This document shows, in pieces, positions 15,501 to 18,825 of a DNA stretch of 64,000 nucleotides. Every line of letters begins with the position of its first letter. Within the stretch, counting starts at the first letter, position 1. Both the position numbers and the translations under genes were made by a program. This DNA is from Helicobacter labetoulli (lineage in GTDB: Bacteria > Campylobacterota > Campylobacteria > Campylobacterales > Helicobacteraceae), in NCBI RefSeq assembly GCF_003670275.1, contig NZ_QXJF01000001.1, forward strand, positions 1-64,000, read 5' to 3'. The notes beneath the pieces are model-generated. The model did no database searches. It saw only the letters and a program-made list of their open reading frames with translations, and was not told the DNA's origin.

Positions 15501-16412
15501 CTAAAAATCCCAACCCTTGCGTGATTTATCCTGCTCTACCTCCTGTTTCTCATCATTGCTTGAATATTCTTGTTTGCTTGTATCTTCTCCTTTAGATTCT
15601 AATAGCTCTAGCAAAATTGAGTAAGCCTTATCAATCTCCTTAAGATAAGTAAGGGAAGTATCTTGAAAGCTTTTGTTGATATTTTTATTATCAAAAATAT
15701 TTTGCTTTGTCTGCTTGATAAGATTATGATACTTTTCGCTTAGCTTTGCCTTGTCTAGCTCATTTGTATCTGTTAGCTCAAAAATAGCCTTAGCCTGTTT
15801 CAAATCCATTTTCAGCTCATCAGCATATTCTTTTTCAAACGCATTGTATATGGCATTAAAATCATCATTAGCTATCTCAAAATACGCCGCAATATCCACA
15901 ATGCTTTCTTGCTCAGAATCCTCAAGCTTACCATCAGCATACGCAAGGGCAAATAAAAACTCCACAACTTTTAACCGCTTTTTATACTCACCCTTTGTTA
16001 AAGCCACATAGCTCTCACATAGCTCATCAAGGCTGATACTTGGTGTTTGCTCTTTTTGGACAATCTCTTCTAGCTCCTCCTTGCTCAATCGTGGATTCTT
16101 AGATTCAGCTGCCATATCACTTAGAATCTCATCTAAAAGCTGCTTTTCCAAAAGGCAGATTTGCTCATCACTCCACACTACCCGCGCAATAATAGCTGCA
16201 AGAATTGAAAATTCATTTGATTTGATTTTACCTACCCAAGGATCTTGCATTTGATAAGGATTATCAAAATTTATAGGTGTATTATCCGCATTATTTGAGC
16301 CAAAAGGCATATTTTGTGGATTTTGATGAAGTGGATTTTTAAGATAATCTTGCAAAGTGTTGTAAAGAAAGTATATAACAACTCCAGCAATGAGTAAAAG
16401 TACGATTTCCAT
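15501..16412 (-). CDS. Membrane-anchored TerB/DjlA-like protein with degenerate J domain
   Basis: One N-terminal helix (MEIVLLLIAGVVIYFLYNTL) anchors the protein. A TerB-type helical domain follows at about residues 65-195, with the acidic pattern ALAYADGKLEDSEQESIVDIAAYF typical of TerB and DjlA. The C-terminal 70 residues resemble a J domain (LSEKYHNLIKQTKQNIFDNKN then YLKEIDKAYSILLELLE), but the essential HPD tripeptide is absent. It therefore probably cannot stimulate DnaK. It is 303 residues long and opens a two-gene tail with the hypothetical protein downstream. The function is unknown. Confidence 0.72.
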   Translation of the reverse strand: MEIVLLLIAGVVIYFLYNTLQDYLKNPLHQNPQNMPFGSNNADNTPINFDNPYQMQDPWVGKIKSNEFSILAAIIARVVWSDEQICLLEKQLLDEILSDMAAESKNPRLSKEELEEIVQKEQTPSISLDELCESYVALTKGEYKKRLKVVEFLFALAYADGKLEDSEQESIVDIAAYFEIANDDFNAIYNAFEKEYADELKMDLKQAKAIFELTDTNELDKAKLSEKYHNLIKQTKQNIFDNKNINKSFQDTSLTYLKEIDKAYSILLELLESKGEDTSKQEYSSNDEKQEVEQDKSRKGWDF

Positions 16413-16460: not shown

Positions 16461-16769
16461 TTAGCGTTTGTTAATGCGTTTTTCAAAATCTTTTTTTAGC
16501 TTTTCTTCTTGCTCTCGTTCAGCTTTTTTTAACCTTTTAAGCTCTTCAATCCTCTCATTTTCAAGGGCAATTTTTTTCTCCCTACTATCACGGATTCTCT
16601 GCATATACTGTTCACGCCTTTTTGGGTCTTGATAGCGAATAGGCTTCATAAACAGCACACCCACGATGATAAAGAAAAATACCAACGCCATTGCAGCATC
16701 TTCCCCACCAAAATGATACCAAGTCGCCCCAACAACCGCCGCTAGAAGAAGTTTCCAAAACGCCTGCAT
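16461..16769 (-). CDS. Small membrane protein with charged coiled coil
   Basis: This 102-residue protein has two hydrophobic segments at about 4-20 and 27-42. A strongly basic/acidic coiled coil makes up the rest (RIEELKRLKKAEREQEEKLKKDFEKR). Its start overlaps the last base of the HdrB-like gene, so it belongs to the same operon as the cysteine-depleted SdhB/HdrB-like pair. It could serve as their membrane tether. That role is inference; I do not recognise the family. Confidence 0.65.
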   Translation of the reverse strand: MQAFWKLLLAAVVGATWYHFGGEDAAMALVFFFIIVGVLFMKPIRYQDPKRREQYMQRIRDSREKKIALENERIEELKRLKKAEREQEEKLKKDFEKRINKR

Positions 16770-17584
16770 TAAAACATCTCTACTTTTTGCTGATGATAGT
16801 TAAAACCGAGCTTTTTAGGGTCATTTTCTCCAAAAGCAAGAAGTAAAATTTGGGGCAAAAACACAATGGGCAATGCGATATTATCACGATTATACGCTCT
16901 ACAAAGTCCAGCTCGTTTAGAATCCAACATCTCAAATTGACTTAATGAATGCGTAAGGATAAAATCTATCCCCAAATCTGCCAAATCAAAAAATAATCTT
17001 GCACTATTATATAACGCACTTTGCGAATTGCTCTGTAAGAGATGAGCATAATATTGTAATGCGATTGGATTTTCAAGCATTGTTAAATCAATTTTTTTAT
17101 AAAGTCCGTGATTTGTGCTTTTGGGTAAATGCCCTTGATAAGCTCCACGCACAATAATGGAGCTAAAGGGTGAAAATCTTTTTTGGATAAGAGATTCAAA
17201 ATTGATAGTATTTAACAAATCTGGTAGATAACTCATCTGCACCTTACTATCATAAAGCAAGTTAAAGCGATGTAAAAATTGCTGTTCAATATCACGCATA
17301 AGTTCAGAATCTGATTCTATAAGTGTTTTAGCATACAACGCATTAGCATACGCATCTTCTTCTAAAAAAACAAGCGTGGCATTCAGCGAGTTTGCCAAGG
17401 CAAGATTGTAGGCGACATTACGCAACAACACATCTTTTTGCACAAACCTTGCAAAATATCCACCACAATCAAGCAATGAATCTTTTGGCTTTATTATCTC
17501 AAGCTGCAATCTCCAAAAAAGCTCTCCTGTGCTGGTTAGCAACGCTTTGGCGTTTTCATATCTGCCATATATAATATACTTCAT
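16769..17584 (-). CDS. HdrB/SdhE-like protein lacking the CCG cysteines
   Basis: The 271 residues follow the plan of heterodisulfide reductase subunit B. The N terminus KYIIYGRYENA parallels the HdrB start, DCGGYF at 39-44 sits where the first CCG motif belongs, and RNVAYNLALANSLNATLVFLEED parallels the HdrB segment before its CxxC. In the C-terminal half LGIDFILTHSLSQFEML replaces the second cysteine motif, and ALPIVFLPQILLLAFGENDPKKLGFNYH is a near-textbook HdrB ending. Only Cys40 and Cys228 remain, so the unusual [4Fe-4S] clusters cannot form. It lies three bases after the FrdB/SdhB-like gene. Function unknown; probably structural or regulatory. Confidence 0.72.
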   Translation of the reverse strand: MKYIIYGRYENAKALLTSTGELFWRLQLEIIKPKDSLLDCGGYFARFVQKDVLLRNVAYNLALANSLNATLVFLEEDAYANALYAKTLIESDSELMRDIEQQFLHRFNLLYDSKVQMSYLPDLLNTINFESLIQKRFSPFSSIIVRGAYQGHLPKSTNHGLYKKIDLTMLENPIALQYYAHLLQSNSQSALYNSARLFFDLADLGIDFILTHSLSQFEMLDSKRAGLCRAYNRDNIALPIVFLPQILLLAFGENDPKKLGFNYHQQKVEMF

Positions 17585-17587
17585 AGC

Positions 17588-18250
17588 CTAAATCTCCTTG
17601 AGTGTGTATAAATGACTGAATTGCTTGTGTTTTGTCCTAAGCACAAGCTCTATAAATTCCCATATTTCCTCATCAAGTGCAGTGCCGCGTGGATATACCA
17701 TATCTGTCAAACTTACAAAGTTTAAAACTCCACTTTGATGCTCAATCACCCACTCTAAAATCTCGCCAAGCTTCTCTGGGTGGCGAGCAAGTAACCATTT
17801 AAGATACAAGAAAAATCCATCTCCTAAATACTCATCATTACTCATCGGCGTAATGAGATTAAGCAAAAGATATTTATCTAGCTCTTCTCTCTCCTCAACA
17901 CTCAAAAAGTCCGCCCACGCAAAAAATGTATCATATTTTTTTCTCAACGCCTTTTTATCAATAAGTAAATCTTTATACGCATAATAAGTGCTTATAGGCT
18001 CAATCTGCCATTCATTGCCAAATCGTTGAGTCAAATCAATCATTTCAAGATTCTCAAAAATAGCAATACCATTAATCCGCAATGCCAAATGCTCCACATC
18101 ACAGGCATATCCACTTATTTCTTGGCTCAAAAATATAAGCAAATCTCGCAAAGTTTGATTGCTTTTTACCTGAAAAGATAGCTTTTTATAATAAGGGAGA
18201 TAATCCACACCTGCTTCAAATGCAAAAACCTCTAATTGCACCTTATCCAT
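17588..18250 (-). CDS. FrdB/SdhB-like protein lacking iron-sulfur cysteines
   Basis: The 220 residues align by eye with fumarate reductase/succinate dehydrogenase iron-sulfur subunits. LEVFAFEAG starts a beta-grasp fold, RINGIAIF (59-66) replaces the usual NG segment after the [2Fe-2S] cysteines, and WQIEPISTYYAYKDLLID (82-98) matches the conserved IxPLxxxxxxKDLxxD. The C-terminal half, with YLGDGFFLYLKWLLARHPE and GVLNFVSLTDMVYP (174-187), mirrors the cluster-binding helical domain. Only Cys50 remains of about eleven cysteines. It probably pairs with the HdrB-like protein encoded next. Known Campylobacterota families of this kind carry DUF names; I believe DUF5644 applies. Confidence 0.72.
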   Translation of the reverse strand: MDKVQLEVFAFEAGVDYLPYYKKLSFQVKSNQTLRDLLIFLSQEISGYACDVEHLALRINGIAIFENLEMIDLTQRFGNEWQIEPISTYYAYKDLLIDKKALRKKYDTFFAWADFLSVEEREELDKYLLLNLITPMSNDEYLGDGFFLYLKWLLARHPEKLGEILEWVIEHQSGVLNFVSLTDMVYPRGTALDEEIWEFIELVLRTKHKQFSHLYTLKEI

Positions 18251-18333: not shown

Positions 18334-18825
18334 TTATTTTTTAAAAAATCTACCATTTTCTGGATTTAACGCAAAGGCGAGATTGGACTGCTCTAGCCCC
18401 TCTCTTTGAATAGATTCAATCTCTTGTAGCTCTTCTTCTGAAAAGTTATAAAAGCAAGGGTGGCTTACATTGGTAAAAAGTGGAATCTCACGCAACAAAT
18501 CGTTATCGTGAAGCAGAATCTGCACAATTCCCTCATACTCAATGCTTACAAAGCTCCCAATATTTTCACTCCCAAACCCCGCCTCAAAACTCATACAGCC
18601 CTCGTGCAACTCTATGCTTTCAAAAGTGTATCCCGCCAAAACAAAAAGCGTAATCTCATTAAAAGTGCTTGTGATATGTTCGGGTAGCTGTGGAGAGAAA
18701 CTTGCTTTTTTCATATCACACAAAATGTTGAAATTAACACTATTTTGAACTAAAAACTGCAAAATATCCCGCGTATGTGTGTTCATTACCGACTTAAACT
18801 GCGGCTGAAAGAGTATCTTGCGCAT
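18334..18825 (-). CDS. Hypothetical protein overlapping pepF
   Basis: This soluble acidic protein of 163 residues has no recognised domain. The predicted pattern is mixed alpha/beta with several hydrophobic strands (EITLFVLAGYTFESIEL, FVSIEYEGIVQILLHD). The start at 18825 lies inside the last 32 bases of pepF but has a strong TAAGGAG seven bases upstream, so I keep it over the internal ATG at 18786. It is very likely translationally coupled to pepF. Confidence 0.65.
   Translation of the reverse strand: MRKILFQPQFKSVMNTHTRDILQFLVQNSVNFNILCDMKKASFSPQLPEHITSTFNEITLFVLAGYTFESIELHEGCMSFEAGFGSENIGSFVSIEYEGIVQILLHDNDLLREIPLFTNVSHPCFYNFSEEELQEIESIQREGLEQSNLAFALNPENGRFFKK

Follow-up and report, generated by a model that had tools for sequence, protein, structure and literature searches.

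The adjacent genes B220 and H271 in the window (the whole 64,000-nucleotide stretch of Helicobacter labetoulli DNA that was analysed) are, at a probability that we put at roughly 0.6, an ancient paralogue of the SdhB-SdhE electron-transfer module that is cysteine-free, now works as a non-redox protein-binding module and was first an accessory of SdhABE. B220 (17588-18250, minus strand, 220 aa) is SdhB-like and cysteine-free at the ligand sites, with an N-terminal beta-grasp domain and a helical DUF5644 domain, and H271 (16769-17584, minus strand, 271 aa) is HdrB/SdhE-like, with two CCG-type halves that have no CCG motifs. When the sequence was checked, the reading frames, the cysteine counts (one in B220, C50; two in H271, C40 and C228) and the motifs (INGI, IEPISTYYAYKDLLID, RNVAYNLALANSLNA and LPQILLLAFG) were all as given in the original prediction. 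Read from the sequence, the junction of the two genes is TAG GCT (17585-17590, minus strand) followed by ATG, and the stop codon of B220 lies in the frame of H271; little beyond one stop codon thus separates the window pair from the natural fusion of its relatives. If TAG is read as a residue, the window encodes one chain of 493 residues that corresponds to the natural fusions in other Helicobacter species, and the fusion relatives without the stop (L011-L013, L017, H. pylori-type genomes and named Helicobacter species) encode a single protein of about 496-540 aa. Among the named relatives, H. cinaedi and H. magdeburgensis have B proteins that are 83% identical to B220.

B220 descends from SdhB, and H271 descends from the HdrB-like SdhE. 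With Pfam, B220 was assigned to DUF5644 (PF18712; 1.4e-45, 154.1 bits, residues 100-206; curated cut-off 25 bits) and H271 to HdrB-like_C (PF22196; 2.1e-36, 124.3 bits, residues 179-265; curated cut-off 33.4 bits), and NCBIfam gave no confident name for either protein. Against HMMs of the true Campylobacterota subunits, B220 scored 51.0 bits with SdhB (E 2.6e-15) and H271 scored 37.4 bits with SdhE, whereas composition-preserving shuffles reached at most 7.5 and 4.3 bits, respectively (maxima over the shuffles giving any score), so the resemblance is not due to chance. A profile built from the cysteine-free B relatives also detected true SdhB at 1e-12 to 1e-22. The frameworks of FrdB/SdhB and HdrB, which were earlier proposed to be kept, were borne out by these scores and by the predicted fold. 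Using the read-through pair, a model was obtained from 30 sequences with no templates (pLDDT 87.1, pTM 0.75), and structure prediction recovered both the SdhB and the HdrB folds rather than unrelated ones. Residues 1-208 of the model (B220) matched many FrdB/SdhB chains at Z 12-13.9 over about 195 residues, with a beta-grasp and a helical ferredoxin-like fold, and residues 223-493 (H271) matched HdrB at Z 27.5-28.6 over 262-268 residues, which gives two CCG domains by fold. Against the H. pylori crystal structure 3KWL, the pair was aligned over both domains simultaneously (Z 38.2, 465 residues, 2.6 A). In addition, a single alignment to EtfD of M. smegmatis (9OJN; Z 14.8, 321 residues, 4.5 A) runs from B into H and covers a part of them, so that their placement seems roughly to be that of a ferredoxin-CCG electron-transfer protein.

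The loss of the ligand cysteines is ancestral and not a local decay. In each of the 12 ligand columns of B, cysteine was found in 23/23 true SdhB and in only 0-2 of 39 representative copies, and in each of the 10 ligand columns of H, it was found in 27-28 of 28 true SdhE and in only 0-3 of the 22 full-length copies. A deletion has removed the 2Fe-2S loop from nearly all of the 39 B copies. The lone cysteine of B220 falls outside the ligand columns, compared with the 11-12 ligands for three clusters in SdhB/FrdB, and C40 is the only cysteine of H271 in a ligand column, compared with the ten-cysteine (CCG) motifs of SdhE/MfrE/HdrB. Since the 2Fe-2S loop is gone and other residues stand in place of the 4Fe-4S and CCG cysteines, the copies should be unable to hold the clusters of their parents. 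Framework residues common to the B copies and true SdhB are F11, D16, N60, G78, P85, D94, G143 and G174, and in all 22 H copies, one former CCG ligand is acidic (E/D) and another former ligand is followed by Phe. The loss can be placed in the ancestor because all copies form a single clade for B and a single clade for H (39 and 22 rows, respectively; SH-aLRT 100 each). The earlier proposal that the iron-sulfur cysteines were lost thus applies well beyond the window, since close and distant orthologues in the Campylobacterota survey are also cysteine-poor at these sites. Local decay of the window pair was excluded, as the ligands are absent, and selection is seen, in orthologues from many families.

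The B clade groups with the SdhB of SdhABE-type enzymes (SH-aLRT 97), apart from FrdB and MfrB, and FrdB was therefore excluded as the parent of B. Of the parentage first suggested, SdhB and the HdrB-like SdhE were retained, and FrdB of quinol:fumarate reductase was set aside by the tree. The trees were quick ones with no bootstrap and with long-branch warnings, and the exact place of B within SdhB, on a stem of 1.86 changes per site, is uncertain. In both the B and the H trees, the copies evolve faster than the true subunits. Purifying selection acts on both genes, with dN/dS against H. cinaedi of 0.13 for B220 and 0.12 for H271 and values of 0.03-0.15 in other pairs, the lowest of which has a nearly saturated dS.

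DUF5644 was found in 198/397 Campylobacterota genomes and in 0/14 control genomes. Using a broader profile, further copies were added, and matches of about 1e-17 to 1e-35 outside Helicobacteraceae were treated as true SdhB and excluded from the copy count. Among near-complete Helicobacteraceae genomes, HdrB-like_C is present in 91/112, and the pair is carried by about four fifths of the Helicobacteraceae genomes searched. When genome contigs were scanned, a single fusion protein as the query gave no matches, and an alignment as the query gave 29 loci. Three gene forms were observed. B and H are separate genes in the window and in families f19 and f5; they are fully fused (about 496-540 aa) in the H. 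pylori type and in many others; and a short fusion (about 350-375 aa) keeps only the second half of H and has lost the first. The B and H halves are adjacent or fused in every locus where both were read. This is in line with the pairing and the ligand loss of the heterodimer without redox centres that was originally suggested, and its two-chain form is one of several. Two damaged loci were also seen: in H. bizzozeronii (L115, 5989-7466), the fusion gene lies in three frames, which may reflect a broken gene or assembly errors, and in genome G111 (L229, 5878-6456), a 193-aa remnant of the pair, apparently in the course of being lost, lies upstream of the TM gene.

The copy probably arose by duplication beside the sdhA-sdhB-sdhE operon. 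It lies within 6 kb of the true sdhE in 19 of the 21 genomes carrying both (families f6, f9, f14, f16 and f18), which argues for a duplication origin there; the 21 are those with coordinates of both genes, so that G275 and G399, which have a likely copy and no listed coordinates, were left out. In 13 of the 19, the copy is on the same strand and upstream, as the first gene of copy-sdhA-sdhB-sdhE, and in 6 it is on the opposite strand. For example, the end of the copy in L079 overlaps the start of sdhA, and the gene that follows it is a true flavoprotein (Succ_DH_flav_C). In L100, divergent genes of clusters c6 and c3, which flank the copy in other families, also adjoin the copy-sdhABE operon, and thus the two genomic contexts of the copy are joined at this locus. 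These clusters are presumably thiL and truD. Where the copy and true sdhE occur together in families f11, f19 and f5, they are not adjacent. The simplest reading is that sdhB-sdhE was duplicated next to sdhA in the ancestor of the order.

In present genomes, the pair and SdhABE are found separately. The genome of the window has no true SdhE, and a clear one was found only in G017 among the Helicobacteraceae genomes searched. No gene for the flavoprotein subunit A lies beside the pair in the window, whereas one lies beside the orthologues in 13 other genomes. The pair persists in genomes without sdhABE, including that of the window, and many genomes have SdhABE without the copy or the copy without SdhABE. 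Moreover, FrdB is still present in G005, G012, G019, G021 and G022, which lost the pair. Dependence on either complex is therefore not obligate. An obligate partnership with SdhABE was excluded, since true SdhE is found in only one Helicobacteraceae genome and the pair in most.

A link between the pair and the neighbouring TM and TerB genes is not supported. A structural complex with the TM/coiled-coil and TerB-like genes was once considered; the distribution of these genes gives it no support. The TM/coiled-coil protein TM102 (16461-16769, minus strand, 102 aa), whose gene overlaps the end of H271 and which matched no Pfam family, is present in all 112 near-complete Helicobacteraceae genomes, whether the pair is present or absent, compared with 91 of 112 for HdrB-like_C. 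It shares 98% identity with the H. cinaedi protein (dN/dS 0.008), compared with 83% for the pair, and looks more constrained. In G005, G022, G050, G126, G146, G186 and G302, the pair alone is missing, and the order of pepF, the 163-aa gene and the TM gene (in most cases with TerB) is intact; G012 and G021 have a similar order, and G111 holds the remnant. Such clean deletions show that the pair is dispensable and that the TM and TerB genes do not need it. The gene for the membrane-anchored TerB protein (15501-16412, minus strand; Pfam TerB 1.2e-11) is retained in most genomes that lost the pair, and membership with the pair is supported for neither TM102 nor TerB. Outside Helicobacteraceae, the pair has other neighbours. 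The 163-aa gene (18334-18825, minus strand), which lies between pepF and the pair and is conserved in Helicobacteraceae, is also still in place in most pair-deleted genomes, and its product had no Pfam or NCBIfam match. Besides a membrane helix, the TerB protein contains a TerB domain (Z 10.1), and its C-terminal region is weakly J domain-like (Z 6.5 to xRbj) and lacks HPD, a combination reminiscent of DjlA. A CutA gene takes the position of TerB in some Helicobacteraceae (L066, L067, L070 and L098), and a desulfoferrodoxin gene follows the pair in family f19 and L074 (L082, L074, L083 and L084).

Based on these observations, the pair is most likely a non-redox scaffold or regulator, and we regard its non-redox role as highly probable. 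We propose that B and H would pack in the manner of the H. pylori fusion crystal structure and would still present the surfaces which once docked the partners of their parents. The copy may at first have assisted the SdhABE complex as an accessory in assembly, holding or regulation; it heads the operon of this complex in several families, and this position argues for such a role with SdhA/SdhBE. After SdhABE was lost in Helicobacter, the pair would have been retained to serve a different partner, perhaps FrdA of the ordinary fumarate reductase. The independence of the copy and SdhABE in present genomes speaks for a role that is not obligate and that differs in Helicobacter. A complex-II flavoprotein as the partner is possible, although we lean against it. 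In true SdhB, the 2Fe-2S loop is part of the docking face to SdhA, and the deletion of this loop in the copies counts against the proposed module. It is a tentative idea, and a somewhat improbable one, that this redox-dead module became a lineage-specific factor for complex-II assembly or regulation in Campylobacterota, encoded first as the leading gene of the sdhABE operon and afterwards retained by itself in Helicobacter for its fumarate reductase. About equally speculative is a narrower role in the maturation or holding of the complex-II flavoproteins SdhA and FrdA, to which an SdhB mimic would be bound before the true iron-sulfur subunit. It would fit the SdhB ancestry of B, the position before sdhA in 13 genomes and the overlap with the sdhA start in L079, and, to our knowledge, Campylobacterota lack the proteobacterial flavinylation factor SdhE/YgfY. 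However, the missing loop, the many genomes with sdhABE and without the pair, and the five genomes that keep FrdB without the pair all weaken it.

Alternatively, the old cluster pockets may have been re-used for a new ligand (metal, quinone, thiol or metabolite), which would make the pair a sensor or an enzyme. The invariant acidic residue at one former ligand site of H, the invariant Phe after another and the recurrent GGYxGR, EDAYAN and YAHL motifs in the Helicobacter pockets are consistent with this, but most of these motifs are not kept outside Helicobacteraceae and the short fusions do without the first half of H, and we consider such re-use unlikely, a little more so than the flavoprotein factor. 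A flagellar or sheath-linked function is very improbable. PMC9570263 (Table 1) counts HP0468, which the 3KWL protein appears to be from its orthology and matching fusion, among the proteins that are enriched in Helicobacter species with a sheath, but the authors caution that sheath and phylogeny are confounded, diverged copies may be missed at their blastp cut-off of 1e-20, and the family is present far outside Helicobacter. Slightly less probable still is a decaying relic with no function: clean losses in several Helicobacteraceae lineages, the remnant in G111 and the faster evolution than that of the true subunits can be read in this way, but the low dN/dS, the frames intact across many families and the preserved pairing contradict it. 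The non-redox protein-binding module thus remains our preferred reading, and because the copy sits next to sdhA in the operon, a complex-II role is directly testable.

In the literature searched, the family is found only in tables or among unknowns, with no function assigned to 3KWL (PMC9570263, PMC6090961, PMC3397514). A family member was reported in a gastric-cancer GWAS, which also cites its up-regulation by hydrogen (PMC6090961), and 3KWL is an entry in a list of unknown structures (PMC3397514). The Pfam name HdrB-like_C indicates that the C-terminal resemblance to HdrB was already recognised. No description of a cysteine-free SdhB/HdrB copy was found in our search, nor a prior account of the relation to SdhB, the single origin, the census of ligands or the linkage to sdhABE. 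An origin can now be given for a widespread Campylobacterota family which has had a crystal structure since 2010 and is merely a hypothetical protein in H. pylori screens. The pair would clearly exemplify an iron-sulfur module that has become a pseudo-subunit without a redox role.

Compared with known systems, the closest is 3KWL of H. pylori (DUF5644 and HdrB-like_C), an orthologous fusion with the same domain arrangement (phmmer E 6.8e-47 for B and 5.2e-32 for H); it is one chain, whereas the window pair is two genes. The closest true relative of B by tree is SdhB of the SdhABE-type succinate dehydrogenase/fumarate reductase, which was described for Wolinella (PMC2680327). The two share the same two-domain fold, but B220 lacks the ligand cysteines and the 2Fe-2S loop, and in the genome of the window its gene does not share an operon with sdhA. 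With SdhE/MfrE and HdrB, H shares the two-half HdrB fold and the C-terminal framework (D..D, RD, Q, L..G and H), but in H271 the CCG and CxxC ligands are replaced, and no non-cubane cluster is therefore expected. With EtfD, a membrane redox protein, the likeness lies in the rough placement of the B and H halves.
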